The notes under the pieces were generated by a model. It searched no databases and had not been told where the DNA came from. It saw only the letters and a program-made list of their open reading frames with translations. From positions 1 through 42,840 of IMG/VR virus record IMGVR_UViG_3300032223_001256: 42,840 bases of DNA; one strand, given 5' to 3'. The position numbers were made by a program, and so were the translations under genes. Shown here in pieces: positions 1,441 through 13,730 of the stretch (positions are counted from its first letter, which is position 1; every line of letters begins with the position of its first letter). The DNA comes from a virus.

Positions 1441-2298
1441 ATGCGACCCACCCCCGGTGCGTCTAACCTCGTCCTGAGCGTCGGCATTGTTGACGCTCCC
1501 ATCGCTCTCTATTCCATCGTGGATGAGAAGGTGGACGAGGTAAAGTTCAAGAACGTCGGCCCCGACGGCAACTTCCCTAAGCGTGTGGACATTCCTCTGT
1601 CCGCCGCCGTCCTTGACGCCAAGGGTGAGAAAGTCACCCACATCAAGGAGTGCGATCCCATCCGCTACGATCAGATGCAGAAGGGCTTTGAAATCTCCAA
1701 GGAGGAGATCGTTATCCTTGAGCAGGATGAGATCAATGCCCTCTTGCCAGAGAAGTGCTCGTCCATCACGATCACCAGCATCGTGCCGGTTGAGCAGATC
1801 AATCCGCTGAGGTTCAACGCCACCTACTACGTTGGTATTGCGACCAAGACGGGTGACGAAGAGCTCGCTGCCAATCGTCACCAGTTGGTCAGCGCGATGA
1901 TCGGCGACGGCTGGGCTGCTATCGGTGAGCTGGTGCTTCGCAACAAGCATCAGCAGGTTATGGTGTACAACCGCAACGGCAACCTGATGCTCACAACGCT
2001 GTGCAGCGTGGCTGCCGTCAATCCTGCTCCCGTCGTTGAGGGAGAAGCGAACTTGGATCTGCTTGAGGCTACCGCTGGACTCGTTGAGTCCATGCGTGGC
2101 ACCTACGATCCTTTCGCCTTCAGAAATGAGTACAAGGATGCGGTGCTGGAACTTGTTCGTGCCAAGGTGAACGGTCAGCCCATGCCGACGGTCACCAAGA
2201 AGTCCAAGGCTGCGGTGAGCGACGACATCCTGCTCGCCAATCTCAAGGCGGTCAGCCCGAGCAAGCCCAAGCCCAAGACGAAGTCCAAGGTCAACTAG
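1441..2298 (+). CDS. ku: Ku-family DNA end-binding protein
   Basis: A 285-aa product behind a strong AAAGGAGAAACC site. It follows bacterial/phage Ku: an N-terminal beta-barrel start (VGIVDAPIALYSIVDE), then a segment like EI.VLE.DEI.ALLPE followed by SITITSIVPVEQINPLRFNA, matching the Ku core block that runs into the FVP...DP..F pattern, then the barrel strands ending LTTLCSVAAVNP. The last 40 residues are lysine-rich (SKPKPKTKSK), like the basic tails of many bacterial Ku proteins that help DNA binding. Bacterial Ku is a homodimer that threads onto double-strand ends and recruits LigD. An ATP-dependent ligase gene lies 0.3 kb downstream in the same operon, which strengthens a DNA end-joining role. 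Confidence 0.9.
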   Translation: MRPTPGASNLVLSVGIVDAPIALYSIVDEKVDEVKFKNVGPDGNFPKRVDIPLSAAVLDAKGEKVTHIKECDPIRYDQMQKGFEISKEEIVILEQDEINALLPEKCSSITITSIVPVEQINPLRFNATYYVGIATKTGDEELAANRHQLVSAMIGDGWAAIGELVLRNKHQQVMVYNRNGNLMLTTLCSVAAVNPAPVVEGEANLDLLEATAGLVESMRGTYDPFAFRNEYKDAVLELVRAKVNGQPMPTVTKKSKAAVSDDILLANLKAVSPSKPKPKTKSKVN

Positions 2299-2305
2299 GA
2301 GGAAC

Positions 2306-2590
2306 ATGAGTCACATCTATCACGAGCCGATTGCCGAGGCTGGACTGTGCGAGGATTGTCCCGGTTGTGAGCGTCTGGCGGAGCACCCTCTCCACTACTT
2401 TGACGCGACCAATCTCAGGCACTACCTGATGCGCACCGTCAACTGGCTTCAGCACGAGGGTGACCCCGAGTGGATGCCGCGCAACAAGACGGAGAGCACA
2501 GCCATGCACAACCTTGAGGATGTGATCCGCACGGTTCGCACCATTGAGGACAAGGGTGTCATGGATATGGTCATCCTCAACAAGGGCTGA
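2306..2590 (+). CDS. Hypothetical protein between Ku and ligase, 94 aa
   Basis: Starts 8 nt after Ku behind AGGAGGAAC, and the ligase follows 3 nt after its stop, so the three genes are probably co-translated. The N-terminus has CEDCPGCERL, a close cysteine cluster, followed by histidines (HPLHYFD) that could form a metal site. The rest is helical and ends VRTIEDKGVMDMVILNKG. Similar small CxxC..C proteins occur in actinophages without known function. A role in end joining is possible only by position. Confidence 0.65.
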   Translation: MSHIYHEPIAEAGLCEDCPGCERLAEHPLHYFDATNLRHYLMRTVNWLQHEGDPEWMPRNKTESTAMHNLEDVIRTVRTIEDKGVMDMVILNKG

Positions 2591-2592
2591 CC

Positions 2593-3321
2593 ATGGACTT
2601 CGCCCTGTGCAAAGAGATTGTCGATCTGCCCGACACAACGGGCAACATGATCTGGCAGCAGAAACTCGATGGCGTCAGGGCGTTCATCTCTGAGAAAACC
2701 ATCCGGCTGCGGACAATCTCCTTCTCAAATGAGGGGGTGAGCGTCCCAGCCGGGTGCGTTCTCGACGGAGAGATTATCGGTGATCGCTTCTCCGATGTCG
2801 TCCCGGCACTAACCAAGCGGGATTGGAACTCAATCAAGTTCGTGCCTTTTGATATCGTCAAGCACGACGGTGACGACGTTCGTCGTGAGTCACTGCTTGT
2901 TCGACTCAACCTCCTCAACGAGGTTGCCAACAATGCTCTGCCAATCTTCGCCTTTCCCGACAGTGAGATGCCGAAGGTGCCTCTTGATTGGGAGGGCGTG
3001 ATCGGTAAGCCGATGCGCTCCACTTATCGTGCTGGTCGTGAGTCGTGGGTCAAGTGGAAGCACATCAACTTCATGGACGCTGTCATTCTCAATCTTGAGA
3101 ACGGCAAGGGACGCTGGTCAGACAGCGTGGGCAAGATTGTCTTCGGCACACCCGAAGGCAAGGTTCTAGGAACTGCCGCTGGCTTTGATGAGAGGACGCG
3201 CCGACTGATGACGCTGAACGGCGTCGACTACATCGGCAAGCCCTGTGTTATCAAGCACTACGGCATGAACAAGCGGCGGCTACGCAATCCAATCTTTCAC
3301 GGAATGAAGGAGGAGCAGTGA
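2593..3321 (+). CDS. ATP-dependent DNA ligase
   Basis: This 242-aa protein has the nucleotidyltransferase motifs of ATP-dependent DNA ligases in order: motif I KLDG at 24-27 with K24 as the AMP-accepting lysine, LDGEI at 58-62, FDI at 86-88, motif IV EGVIGK at 134-139 and motif V WVKWK at 152-156. An OB-fold-like domain follows (GRWSDSVGKIVFG, then GFDERTRRLM). The size equals a minimal ligase (catalytic plus OB domains), with no LigD polymerase or nuclease part. It would seal nicks or rejoined breaks using ATP. Its place next to Ku suggests the two act together. The ribosome binding site is weak (AAGGGC), consistent with coupling to the upstream gene. Confidence 0.88.
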   Translation: MDFALCKEIVDLPDTTGNMIWQQKLDGVRAFISEKTIRLRTISFSNEGVSVPAGCVLDGEIIGDRFSDVVPALTKRDWNSIKFVPFDIVKHDGDDVRRESLLVRLNLLNEVANNALPIFAFPDSEMPKVPLDWEGVIGKPMRSTYRAGRESWVKWKHINFMDAVILNLENGKGRWSDSVGKIVFGTPEGKVLGTAAGFDERTRRLMTLNGVDYIGKPCVIKHYGMNKRRLRNPIFHGMKEEQ

Positions 3322-4591: not shown

Positions 4592-5620
4592 ATGAGCCAT
4601 GAACTTGAGATCCGCGCCGATGGAACCGGTGCAGCCGCCTACGCCTACAAGCCTGCGTGGCATGGGCTTGGCGTTGTCGTGGACGGTCTGATGACCGCCG
4701 AGGAGTGCTTGCATCGTGTGCCGGAGCTGGCTTCGCCCATCGTTCCGGAGCCGGTGTATGCGAAGAACCCGAACACGGGACTGTTTGTTCCGATTGACGG
4801 GTACGTCGCCAACGTCCGGTCGGAGGACTTCAAGCCGCTGGCTATCGTCGGCGAGCGGTACAAGATCCTCCAGAACGTCGAGGCGCTCTCGTTCCTCGAT
4901 GACCTCGTCGATTCCGGCGAGGCGAAGTACGAGGCTGTCATCAGCCTCAAGGACGGTGCCAAGGTCAGCCTGCTGGCTCGCCTGCCCCGCGAGGTCAAGA
5001 TCGGCGGCATGGAGGAACTGTCCACGTTCATCCTGCTGTCGAACTCGCACGATGGTTCGTCCGCCATCACTCTGGCTGCGACTCCTGTCCGGGTCGTCTG
5101 CCAGAACACTCTGACTCTCGCCCTCAGCACGGCGAAGCGCACCTTCAAGGTCCGCCACACGTCGTCGCTGTCGGGTCGTCTGTCGGAGGCTCGCACGGCG
5201 CTGGGTGTGGTCTTCAACTACATGGCGGAGTTCGAGGAGACGGCTGACCAGCTGCTCAACACCTCGTTCACCGACGCGCAGTTCGAGGAGTTCCTCGCCT
5301 CGCTCATCGTGATGCCGGAGGACGAGGGTCGTGGCAAGACCATCGCCACCAACACTCACGATGCGATCCGCTCCATCGCCTACAACAACCTCCGGGTTGA
5401 GGATGGCAACCGCAACGTGCAGGTCAACCTGCCGGACATGGAGCCGATCAAGAACACGAAGTGGTGGGCGCTGAATGCTGTCAGCACCTACAACCAGCAC
5501 TTCGCCACGAGCAAGAAGACGAAGCGCACCTCCGCTGAGGAGAACCGCTTCAAGCGTGTGATGGGTGACGGCAACACCAACATCACCGACAAGGCGTTCG
5601 GGCTGCTCACCGCAGTCTGA
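4592..5620 (+). CDS. DUF932 / phage-plasmid-like protein
   Basis: A 342-aa product behind AAAGGAGAAACTC and its own promoter. It matches the DUF932 (TIGR03299, phage/plasmid-like) family: KPAWHGLGVVVDGLMTAEE near residues 20-38, then VGERYKILQNVEAL and the family block from LSNSHDGSSAI to VRVVCQNTL, and a C-terminal NTKWWALNAVSTYNQH region. Family members are common in large phages, and their function is not settled. GC content and codon bias are higher than in the neighbours, with many CTC/CTG and GTC codons, which suits strong expression. The terminator-like hairpin just after it suggests a single-gene transcript. Confidence 0.85.
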   Translation: MSHELEIRADGTGAAAYAYKPAWHGLGVVVDGLMTAEECLHRVPELASPIVPEPVYAKNPNTGLFVPIDGYVANVRSEDFKPLAIVGERYKILQNVEALSFLDDLVDSGEAKYEAVISLKDGAKVSLLARLPREVKIGGMEELSTFILLSNSHDGSSAITLAATPVRVVCQNTLTLALSTAKRTFKVRHTSSLSGRLSEARTALGVVFNYMAEFEETADQLLNTSFTDAQFEEFLASLIVMPEDEGRGKTIATNTHDAIRSIAYNNLRVEDGNRNVQVNLPDMEPIKNTKWWALNAVSTYNQHFATSKKTKRTSAEENRFKRVMGDGNTNITDKAFGLLTAV

Positions 5621-11212: not shown

Positions 11213-11448
11213 AGATAATCGGACCGTTCACCCTGCACGAGCATCTGACGGACAATCCCGAGTACGAACTACAATTTGAGTGGGACGAGGCATTCGACAG
11301 TCGAGGCTTGAAGATTACTCAGATTTTTCAAGATGAGACGGGCGGTGCTGCCGTCACTATCTGGATGAACCGAACGGAGGCACAGCAGTTGCATAAGTAT
11401 CTGTTTGGCTGCGTCAACTACCGTCCTCTTCCTGAGGAACTGCAATGA
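11209..11448 (+). CDS. Small hypothetical protein, 79 aa, TTG start
   Basis: TTG 11209 overlaps the previous TGA and the stop overlaps the methyltransferase start by 4 nt, so the frame fits exactly between two genes. The product is beta-rich and ends in a helix with TEAQQLHKYLFG. A rare start codon and weak ribosome binding site suggest coupled, low translation. Function unknown. Confidence 0.6.
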   Translation: MKIIGPFTLHEHLTDNPEYELQFEWDEAFDSRGLKITQIFQDETGGAAVTIWMNRTEAQQLHKYLFGCVNYRPLPEELQ

Positions 11449-12641
11449 AGGTAGGCAGCACATTTACCGGAGTCGGCGGTGCCGACCTTGGGTTTGAGTG
11501 GGCGGGATTCGATATCGCTTGGCAGTGCGAGCTGGACAAGTGGAAGCGTCAGGTGCTTGCCGCACACTGGCCCGACATTCCGATCTACGAAGACATCACA
11601 CAACTACATGACCCGGAGCCTGTCGATCTGTTGATGGGCGGCTTCCCCTGTCAGGATTTGTCCGTGGCAGGACGACGGAAAGGATTTACAGGTGAGCGAT
11701 CAGTCCTTGCTTTCGAGTTCCTCCGACTCGCAGAGAATATTCGACCTCGCTGGATGCTCTTGGAAAACGTACCGGGACTCCTTAGCAGCAATCGCGGAAG
11801 AGACTTCGCCCGACTCATCGATGAAGTGGTCGATTGCGGGTACGGCATCGGCTGGCGAGTTCTCGATGCCCAGTTTTTCGGCACGGCGCAGCGGAGACGG
11901 AGAACATACATTGTCGCCCGTCGTATCGAGTCTGGTCTCGATTCTAGAGACGCAGGTTTCGCCGCACTATCTGCTCTCCTCGAAAGCGGCGAAGGGGATA
12001 TTACTTCGTGCCTCACGCCGGAACAAATCGCTTCCCTCCGAGTTGGAGGCGGCGTTGAAGGAGGCGGCGGAGCGCGACGACGAGTAGTCCCGATTCAGAA
12101 CACGGTCATCGGTCGCTCCGACAAGGCGGGACCCAATGGACGTGGACACGGTGACGTTGACGGCGTGATGTTCACGCTGGATCGCAGCGGTCCTCACGCT
12201 ATCGCAGCCGTGCCGATTCAGGACGGACGTGCGATGGACAAGAAGCAGAACGGGCTGGGCGTTGGTGCCGAGGGTGATCCGTCCTATACTCTCGACCGCA
12301 CGGGCGCTCAGAGCGTGGCTGCCTACCGCAAGAGCAGCCGTGCTCGTTCGGCTGACGGATACGAGACGTGGGTTGAGGACGGCGTGTCCAACACGCTCAA
12401 TCGATTCGACGTGGGCGATGTGCGTTCGACGCAGATCGTCACCGAGGGTTCGGTAGTCAGGCGGCTCACGCCCCGGGAGACTGAGCGTCTCCAAGGATGG
12501 CCGGACGACTTCACCGCGCCCGAGGGCGTGGACGCGCCGGACAATAAGCGGTACGCTGCGTGTGGCGACGGCATTGCTGCTCCGGTAGCATACTGGATCG
12601 CAAAGCGAATTATGGAAATCGACAAGGAGATGAATGCGTAA
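11445..12641 (+). CDS. dcm: DNA (cytosine-5) methyltransferase
   Basis: A 398-aa Dcm-type enzyme that would transfer a methyl group from S-adenosylmethionine to C5 of cytosine. Motif I is FTGVGGADLGFEWAGF (7-22), motif IV GFPCQ (66-70) with C69 as the catalytic cysteine, motif VI ENV (107-109), motif VIII QRRRR (149-153), and motifs IX-X are RLTPRETERLQGWPDDF and GDGIAAPVAYWIAKRI near the C-terminus. The target recognition region lies between residues 160 and 340 and is low in complexity. No restriction endonuclease is adjacent, so it is likely an orphan enzyme protecting phage DNA. Residues 83-214 are encoded by DNA that also encodes another protein in a second frame (11692-12087). Confidence 0.92.
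   Translation: MKVGSTFTGVGGADLGFEWAGFDIAWQCELDKWKRQVLAAHWPDIPIYEDITQLHDPEPVDLLMGGFPCQDLSVAGRRKGFTGERSVLAFEFLRLAENIRPRWMLLENVPGLLSSNRGRDFARLIDEVVDCGYGIGWRVLDAQFFGTAQRRRRTYIVARRIESGLDSRDAGFAALSALLESGEGDITSCLTPEQIASLRVGGGVEGGGGARRRVVPIQNTVIGRSDKAGPNGRGHGDVDGVMFTLDRSGPHAIAAVPIQDGRAMDKKQNGLGVGAEGDPSYTLDRTGAQSVAAYRKSSRARSADGYETWVEDGVSNTLNRFDVGDVRSTQIVTEGSVVRRLTPRETERLQGWPDDFTAPEGVDAPDNKRYAACGDGIAAPVAYWIAKRIMEIDKEMNA
11692..12087 (+). CDS. Overprinted gene inside the methyltransferase gene, 131 aa
   Basis: In the +1 frame relative to the methyltransferase, a GTG at 11692 follows GGAAAGGA with a 7-nt spacer. The product ends with SLVSILETQVSPHYLLSSKA, AKGILLRASRRNKSLPSELE and a charged tail. That end matches a widespread phage protein type whose C-terminus reads roughly SL..VLE......YYLS..A..GILRRA.RRG..LP..L..AL. 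The upstream part (SMKWSIAGTASAGEFSMPS) also fits that type, which usually has a W...GTA/GM....C/E motif there. A chance frame would not reproduce this pattern, so I regard it as a real, fully nested gene. Its function is unknown; homologues I recall tend to sit beside or inside phage methylase genes. Confidence 0.75.
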   Translation: MSDQSLLSSSSDSQRIFDLAGCSWKTYRDSLAAIAEETSPDSSMKWSIAGTASAGEFSMPSFSARRSGDGEHTLSPVVSSLVSILETQVSPHYLLSSKAAKGILLRASRRNKSLPSELEAALKEAAERDDE

Positions 12642-13209
12642 TTGTGTATCTTGCGGTGCCGCTGTTGCACCGCGTTTCAAGTACTGTGACGACTGTCGCG
12701 ACACTGCCGCAGTGTGGCGTCCAGACTACGACGGCATCAGTCGTGCGACCAAGCGGCTCAAGATTACAGTCCCGGTTGTGATCCGCAGGGTTACGACAAA
12801 CAAACTTCTTGGTCGCTACCACGGGATCAAACTGCGAGACGATCATCCGACAGACATGGATGTTATCGTGCAGATGTCAGACGACGAGCTTCGACAGTAC
12901 ATGTATCACTTCATCACCGTCTCTGCTCGCATCACACCTGACCGCGCAAGTCGTGTTCTCTGGCACGAACTTACCCATGCATCGCAGATGGAGAACGTTG
13001 ATAACTACAAGACTCTTTACGATACTGAGTATCGCATCATCAAAGAGCATGCCGCAGAGCTTAACATTCCGCTTGCTGCCGCATACAAACTGATCTCTTT
13101 TGAGGTCGAAGCAATCAAGAACGAGGACAGGCACAAGAAGACGCCCCTCACTCTTGCTAACCGTCGTGCTGTCAAGCCTAAGCGTGGCTTGATCGCCGTC
13201 GGCAAGTAA
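12634..13209 (+). CDS. Zinc-finger plus HELTH metallopeptidase-like protein
   Basis: A 191-aa product whose start overlaps the methyltransferase stop by 8 nt, behind AAGGAGATGA. The N-terminus CVSCGAAVAPRFKYCDDC is a four-cysteine zinc finger. The central WHELTHASQME contains HExxH, the zinc-binding and catalytic motif of zincins, within a helix typical of phage and ImmA/IrrE- or SprT-like peptidases. The third ligand is not obvious; a Glu or His in the following helix could serve. It would be a cytoplasmic zinc peptidase or a structural relative. A paralogue lies directly downstream. Confidence 0.72.
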   Translation: MRNCVSCGAAVAPRFKYCDDCRDTAAVWRPDYDGISRATKRLKITVPVVIRRVTTNKLLGRYHGIKLRDDHPTDMDVIVQMSDDELRQYMYHFITVSARITPDRASRVLWHELTHASQMENVDNYKTLYDTEYRIIKEHAAELNIPLAAAYKLISFEVEAIKNEDRHKKTPLTLANRRAVKPKRGLIAVGK

Positions 13210-13220
13210 AGGAGAAATAA

Positions 13221-13730
13221 ATGGTTTCGTGGGAGGTCGACAGGGCGTTGCTCCGTGACGCCTGCGAACGACTCGTTGTCCGGTATAACGTCATCGTTAC
13301 TCCGGCTAAACTTCCAGATCGTGTCAAGGGTCGCTACTGCGGTTTCGATTATGTCCGCAAGGTTCTTGGTCACGACATTCGTATCTCTCGTTATCTCTCG
13401 CCCGAGGACGCAAGCCGCTGCCTCTGGCACGAGCTCACTCATGTGTCTCAGTTTGAGGACAGTCCGTCCACGTTCTACGACGAGTACGAGCGATACGACC
13501 GCAAGTACAAGCAACTGCTCGCGTCCGGAGTGGCGAGTGCAGACGCTTATCTTTCCAATCCATTTGAAGCCGCAGCCAAGGCAAACGAGCGACTTCACGA
13601 TGAGGTTGGCTCGCTAATGCTTACGAAGGCGGGAGTTGATCATATCGATACGTTTGAGGCTCAACTGAAGCGTGCGGCAAACCTCTCTCATATCCAGAAG
13701 GCTGCGGATATGATAGGGTTGAGTTCGTGA
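13221..13730 (+). CDS. Second HELTH metallopeptidase-like protein
   Basis: A 169-aa product behind AAAGGAGAAATAA, 11 nt after its paralogue. It shares the block (I)(S/T)(R/P)...ASR(C/V)LWHELTH(V/A)SQ(F/M)E and the preceding GRY(C/H)G segment, but lacks the N-terminal zinc finger. Downstream residues form long charged helices (YDEYERYDRKYKQLLASG). The pair looks like a tandem duplication in which one copy kept or gained the zinc finger. Substrate unknown. Confidence 0.72.
   Translation: MVSWEVDRALLRDACERLVVRYNVIVTPAKLPDRVKGRYCGFDYVRKVLGHDIRISRYLSPEDASRCLWHELTHVSQFEDSPSTFYDEYERYDRKYKQLLASGVASADAYLSNPFEAAAKANERLHDEVGSLMLTKAGVDHIDTFEAQLKRAANLSHIQKAADMIGLSS

Follow-up and report, generated by a model that had tools for sequence, protein, structure and literature searches.

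The nested open reading frame (ORF) that we describe here, located in the +1 frame of a phage C5-cytosine DNA methyltransferase (MTase) gene, is probably a separately initiated gene for the small (beta) subunit of a naturally split enzyme. Both frames of the shared DNA are under selection. In the window itself, that is, the entire stretch of 42,840 nucleotides analysed from IMG/VR record IMGVR_UViG_3300032223_001256, demonstrable selection in the +1 frame is limited to the C-terminal block of the nested ORF. An unannotated second gene is present inside the MTases of hundreds of phages, whose hosts are Gram-negative, Gram-positive and actinobacterial and which include the classic phage P1. These genes provide a clear natural case of an enzyme part that changes its reading frame while both frames are still selected.

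The methyltransferase gene and its nested reading frame

The MTase gene (11445..12641, + strand) encodes a protein of 398 aa, the proposed large (alpha) subunit, with matches to PF00145 (E=1.2e-58), to phrog_116 (E=6e-86) and to M.HaeIII and M.HhaI. Its own frame, referred to as frame 0, contains motifs I-VIII, a variable region and motifs IX-X. The PF00145 match, together with the PCQ, ENV and QxRxR signatures and motifs IX-X, all invariant in alignments, identifies the protein as a C5-cytosine MTase. Motif VIII (QRRRR; 11889..11903, + strand), invariant in the MTase alignments, is located within the overlap with the nested ORF, and motif IX (RRLTPRETERLQGWPDDF; 12459..12512, + strand), placed by alignment, is located outside it. 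Structure prediction of alpha alone yields a low-confidence model for the variable region (alpha residues 192-328; 12018..12428, + strand), most of which has a pLDDT <50 (segments 192-297, 305-307 and 312-328).

Short modules (e.g. AYRKSSRARSADGYETWVEDGVSNTLNRFDVGDVRSTQ) recur between positions 12150 and 12430 of the window and in the variable regions of the closest IMG/VR MTases (L010-L017), in an order that differs between phages; this reshuffling resembles modular multi-target recognition domains. Directly 3' of the MTase gene, and overlapping its stop codon, the gene at 12634-13209 has a weak Peptidase_M78/IrrE match (E=7e-4, below the Pfam cut-off), and its neighbour at 13221-13730 has a similar HELTH motif. 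A DUF932 protein (PF06067, E=5e-55) is encoded at 4592-5620.

The nested ORF (11692..12087, + strand), the proposed beta gene, extends from just past motif IV, across motif VIII, into the variable region. A sequence-only reading of this DNA had proposed a protein of 131 aa at this place, with a GTG start and a ribosome-binding site, and both signals are indeed present: the Shine-Dalgarno-like GGAAAGGA (11677..11684, + strand) stands 7 nt 5' of the GTG codon (11692..11694, + strand). This arrangement is identical in three members of the window clade (L010, L012 and L013), where the start codon likewise stands at +15 codons from PCQ; in L011 it is found one codon earlier. In the main clade, the nested start is an ATG or TTG located 11 codons before PCQ, with TTTAAGGAGTGG upstream and AAGGAG about 8 nt 5' of the start codon. 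The lysine codon within this AAGGAG is AAG in 33/37 cases, against 139/367 in the remainder of these genes (p=9e-10), and the glutamate codon is GAG in 27/34 cases, against 190/474 (p=7e-6), p-values that are optimistic because the sequences share ancestry. Synonymous codons of the MTase are chosen so that the Shine-Dalgarno sequence of the nested gene is kept.

AlphaFold2 predicts residues 1-75 of the nested protein to be disordered and its C-terminus (~79-128) to be confidently helical, with helices at 79-87, 97-109 and 116-128 and a pLDDT of 86-97 for residues 91-130. The C-terminus consists of an L.DILE..V..YYLS element, to which a short tail of helical structure, GILRRA.KRGK.LP..L..AL, is fused. 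Its conserved block (VVSSLVSILETQVSPHYLLSSKAAKGILLRASRRNKSLPSELEAAL; 11917..12060, + strand) stands out by the shuffle score, the codon-position pattern and the match to monomeric MTases presented below. No Pfam or NCBIfam family matches the nested protein, a Foldseek search with its model gave no match at E<=0.001, and searches of PDB sequences, run both for the nested family and for the beta subunit of phage MM1, gave no relevant match. The gene is recognized by its conservation beyond that of the frame-0 protein, by an ORF shared with L010-L017 and by phrog_16143 ('DNA methyltransferase', 139 aa), which matches the nested proteins of the window (E=0.001) and of L004 (E=4e-14). The phrog_16143 record is named after the MTase and is silent on an origin in a second frame.

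Both frames of the shared DNA are under selection

ORF length was dropped as evidence for the nested gene: when the MTase codons are resampled synonymously, the length of the window ORF falls within the null (p=0.16). We scored the +1 peptides with a profile built from those of other phages, leaving out the window and its close relatives. The window peptide obtained 105.6 bits, compared with 24±8 (maximum 58.5) in 2000 synonymous-codon shuffles. The C-terminal block alone obtained 61.0 bits against 0.2±3.2 in the shuffles (z=19), and the N-terminal half of the window peptide was within the shuffle null (43.9 against 40.6±9; z=0.4). Of the 16 members tested, most reach z=4-7.5 for the N-terminal half, the exceptions being the window and its two close relatives.

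The distribution of differences over codon positions was determined after masking the search pattern, in a sample selected through frame-0 motifs. Within the YYLS block, the differences per frame-0 codon position 1/2/3 are 0.404, 0.256 and 0.203, compared with 0.232, 0.173 and 0.520 on the 5' side of the overlap and 0.360, 0.289 and 0.612 on its 3' side. The ratio of position 3 to position 1 is 0.36-0.50 in the block versus 1.5-3.8 elsewhere in the MTase gene; for the window clade alone, it is 0.52 versus 3.6 and 2.4. As position 1 of frame 0 is position 3 of the +1 frame, the YYLS block shows the pattern of a sequence that codes in the +1 frame. Where the overlap covers the catalytic core, third positions remain the most variable, but their variability is damped.

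The shuffle tests, the reversal of the codon-position pattern and the frame-0 sample described below all support the earlier claim that both frames code for real proteins. Among the MTases of the clade examined, we found no substitution that breaks the nested frame while the MTase is kept.

Distribution across phages

The C-terminal pattern put forward from the sequence, YYLS..A..GILRRA, proved to be correct and widespread in phages, and homologues of the 131-aa product do exist. The MTase protein, rather than the nested product, served as query for the closest IMG/VR MTases (L010-L017); each of them contains the same +1 ORF, which is 152-183 codons long and has the end ..LSAKA..GIL.RA or one very similar to it. 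Prevalence has to be read from MTases picked by frame-0 motifs (ENVPG[VL]LS; E[CTV]E[RA]L[QM]G; counted where the frame was readable), because L018-L097 were retrieved with the +1 motif itself. In this frame-0 sample, ranked by similarity to a member carrying the nested ORF, the +1 ORF and its motif are present in 79/79 MTases (77 with the strict pattern and 2 by eye). In all of these 79 genes, the stretch between ENV and the YYLS motif is open in the +1 frame, the median open length being 162 codons, compared with 40 in the +2 frame. On viral contigs, a search with the nested alignment gave at least 599 pattern matches, of which at least 595 were confirmed.

The earlier description of a widespread phage protein can be refined: widespread it is, and each time it lies inside an MTase gene, in the +1 frame. 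All 93 motif occurrences examined are in the +1 register over an MTase-frame ORF (89 by automatic signature and 4 over a long MTase-frame ORF), and no free-standing copy of the nested protein was found among these 93 matches or in the named phages examined. At least 172 named phage records carry the nested ORF (E<=1e-3), nearly always unannotated. Carriers include the dmt genes of P1, P7 and RCS47, mycobacteriophages, and phages of Vibrio, Streptococcus, Akkermansia, Caulobacter, Pseudomonas and Roseobacter. A scan of genome contigs with a single protein gave one locus, in a MAG (L178). Automatic gene callers systematically lose the nested gene because fully nested ORFs get rejected.

A recognition-domain element present in either of two frames

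The monomeric MTases of Staphylococcus phage IME-SA4 and related phages, which served as controls, have the element (LVDILEKDVDESYYLSEEKTRKL) in frame 0, immediately behind motif VIII, and none in the +1 frame. This segment aligns with NTFVKDLLLPDSEVEHLVIDRKDL of M.HhaI (~residues 188-212), at the start of the recognition domain (TRD). A profile of the nested C-termini scores 4.9-11.5 bits against the in-frame elements of these monomeric Staphylococcus phage MTases, a short match (~18 residues) with modest scores; the scores of the controls, alpha frames and reversed sequences, are negative throughout. When 200 MTase loci were searched with both profiles, the element was found only in the +1 frame in 176, only in frame 0 in 19 and in neither in 5, and never in both frames or in +2. 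Our case for homology to monomers is based on the unselected hmmsearch together with this frame count, the hhalign score being biased by segments picked by pattern.

The element occupies at most one frame per locus, and the nested protein therefore carries an MTase piece that has no counterpart in its host frame. Judged from these sequence comparisons, the nested C-terminal element and the in-frame element that opens the TRD in monomeric MTases are homologues. The term 'overprinting', which had been applied to the whole nested gene, consequently fits its N-terminal half better than its C-terminal block, because the latter matches an in-frame element of the monomers.

Relatives of the IME-SA4 type in Staphylococcus prophages (L209-L229) are cut to ~190 codons in the first frame, the rest being found in other frames; these MTase copies are likely decayed or further split. 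The Faecalibacterium phages Toutatis and Lelie (L002 and L009) show either a fusion of MTase halves to the nested-frame block or a circular permutation; in the Lelie MTase, the N-terminal motif is located at the C-terminus. Both arrangements suggest local recombination within the MTase gene.

A probable split enzyme and its alternatives

Two observations suggest that the window MTase belongs with the natural two-subunit enzymes: a second polypeptide is specified by an overlapping ORF in another frame that is under selection, and the large ORF lacks a conserved MTase element that the small ORF has. Alpha keeps motifs I-X and lacks the L.DILE..V..YYLS.. element, which in monomeric C5-MTases comes after motif VIII and opens the TRD. 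In the mechanism that we propose, ribosomes would initiate the nested gene at its own Shine-Dalgarno sequence and GTG, and one message would yield both subunits. Beta would then dock on alpha, supply the TRD-start element and complete the recognition-domain/hinge region. We infer that the nested gene is translated in cells, that its product binds alpha and that it is needed for activity, although alpha might be active on its own. Several observations speak against a subunit: in the window protein, the N-terminal half is no more conserved than the MTase frame requires and is predicted to be disordered, the match to monomers is short, Foldseek gave no significant match, and motif IX, unlike in M.EcoHK31I, remains in alpha.

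It is unlikely, although it deserves consideration, that the nested gene is real and encodes an independent phage protein, such as a regulator or a counter-defence factor, that shares the DNA of the MTase. Strong +1 selection, a basic helical C-terminus and the lack of a structural match would all suit such a protein. However, it was never seen apart from an MTase in the 93 motif matches and the named phages examined, and its element is homologous to an MTase piece that alpha lacks, with perfect mutual exclusion between the frames.

We give slightly less weight still to a programmed frameshift from the MTase frame that would fuse the MTase N-terminus to the DILE-YYLS block without separate initiation. 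Such an event would be consistent with the restriction of clear selection to the C-terminal block in the window, and Toutatis has an MTase N-terminus and the block in one frame. Yet the Shine-Dalgarno sequence and start codon are conserved, with synonymous codons chosen for the former, selection on the N-terminal half is seen across the wider family, and the frameshift product would be devoid of motifs IX-X.

It is highly improbable that the nested ORF is a by-product of MTase conservation and codon bias and that the second protein is nonexistent: this would agree with the length of the window ORF, but the shuffle z of 10-19, the Shine-Dalgarno codon choice and the in-frame counterpart in monomers contradict it, and the reversed codon-position pattern already refutes it. 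A homing endonuclease inserted out of frame, as in ShiLan (PMC11855218), has a negligible probability, for the window ORF, albeit likewise out of frame in a phage methylase and starting with GTG, overlaps the conserved catalytic core and not an insert, recurs in every one of the 79 sampled siblings and has no HNH and no Pfam domain.

Returning to the split enzyme, we consider the chances about even that an in-frame MTase element moved to a nested gene in a shifted frame and that a large share of phage C5-MTases, P1 Dmt included, are obligate heterodimers with an overlooked second gene; the nested subunit could also be a separate switch or effector. Should beta prove to be required as a subunit, any phage MTase cloned as one polypeptide would lack activity or be misread.

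Comparison with known systems

As split C5-MTases and one annotated nested beta gene exist, the kind of gene described here is already known. A TRD-start element in the nested gene with motif IX in alpha, the breadth of its occurrence among phages, P1 included, and the swapping of the element between frames appear to be undescribed as far as the openly licensed literature shows. In that literature, we found no described nested ORF in P1 dmt or in phage C5-MTases beyond ShiLan.

ShiLan-type genes are homing endonuclease ORFs with a GTG start that are inserted out of frame in phage methylases (PMC11855218). The likeness to the window is one of position inside a phage methylase, without measured homology; in contrast to the nested ORF, they are mobile insertions with an HNH domain and a sporadic distribution. 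A ShiLan-like case is seen in Gordonia phage Bibwit (L192), whose MTase is annotated as a two-piece join (1501-3210) with an HNH endonuclease gene inside (1886-2341).

The pneumophage SpSL1 encodes an m5C MTase that is active in vivo, with 102/113 RCGRC sites methylated in the bisulfite methylome (PMC6755750). We found the same nested-ORF layout in this MTase, the nested ORF ending in SLSDILEENVPEEFFLS. Enzymes with this arrangement are therefore active in nature, which does not imply a need for beta. In the pneumococcal (Streptococcus) phage MM1 1998 (DQ113772), orf14 is annotated as 'C5 methyltransferase beta subunit' and is located inside orf13, the alpha subunit; we found no experimental test of this beta subunit in the literature searched. 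Like the window ORF, orf14 is nested in the +1 frame and has an SLSDILE..V..YFLS ending, so that both share the end L.DILE..V..YfLS (SLVSILETQVSPHYLLS in the window, SLSDILEEEVDERYFLS in MM1), but it is devoid of the GILRRA.KRGK.LP tail. The tblastn link between the window and MM1 runs through L008.

The small gene of M.EcoHK31I is also located inside the large gene, in another frame. A second kind of +1 ORF over C5-MTases, found in Caudoviricetes ctjLE16 (L006), Paenibacillus phage Xenia (L189) and Mycobacterium phage Obama12 (L186), corresponds to the M.EcoHK31I arrangement: it is rich in 'LPTPTASD' and has a motif-IX-like end, '(N)PEWVECLMGFPIGWT'. The ORF of L006 matches phrog_1008, and in L183 and L184 the segment corresponding to the motif-IX-like end (EWMMGWPIGW) is in frame 0.

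M.AquI and M.EcoHK31I are established two-polypeptide C5-MTases (PMC3404938). M.AquI (alpha/beta) resembles the window MTase in being naturally split over two polypeptides (PMC3404938); unlike in the window, the split is in tandem, and M.AquI beta comprises the distal variable region and motifs IX-X. For M.EcoHK31I (YGGCCR; Lee et al., 1995), motifs I-VIII and X are assigned to the large subunit and only motif IX to the small one (PMC3404938). M.EcoHK31I and the window MTase both have a small subunit, proposed in our case, with a conserved piece that is missing from the large one. They differ in the piece concerned, which is motif IX in M.EcoHK31I and the DILE..YYLS element in the window, where motif IX is kept by alpha.
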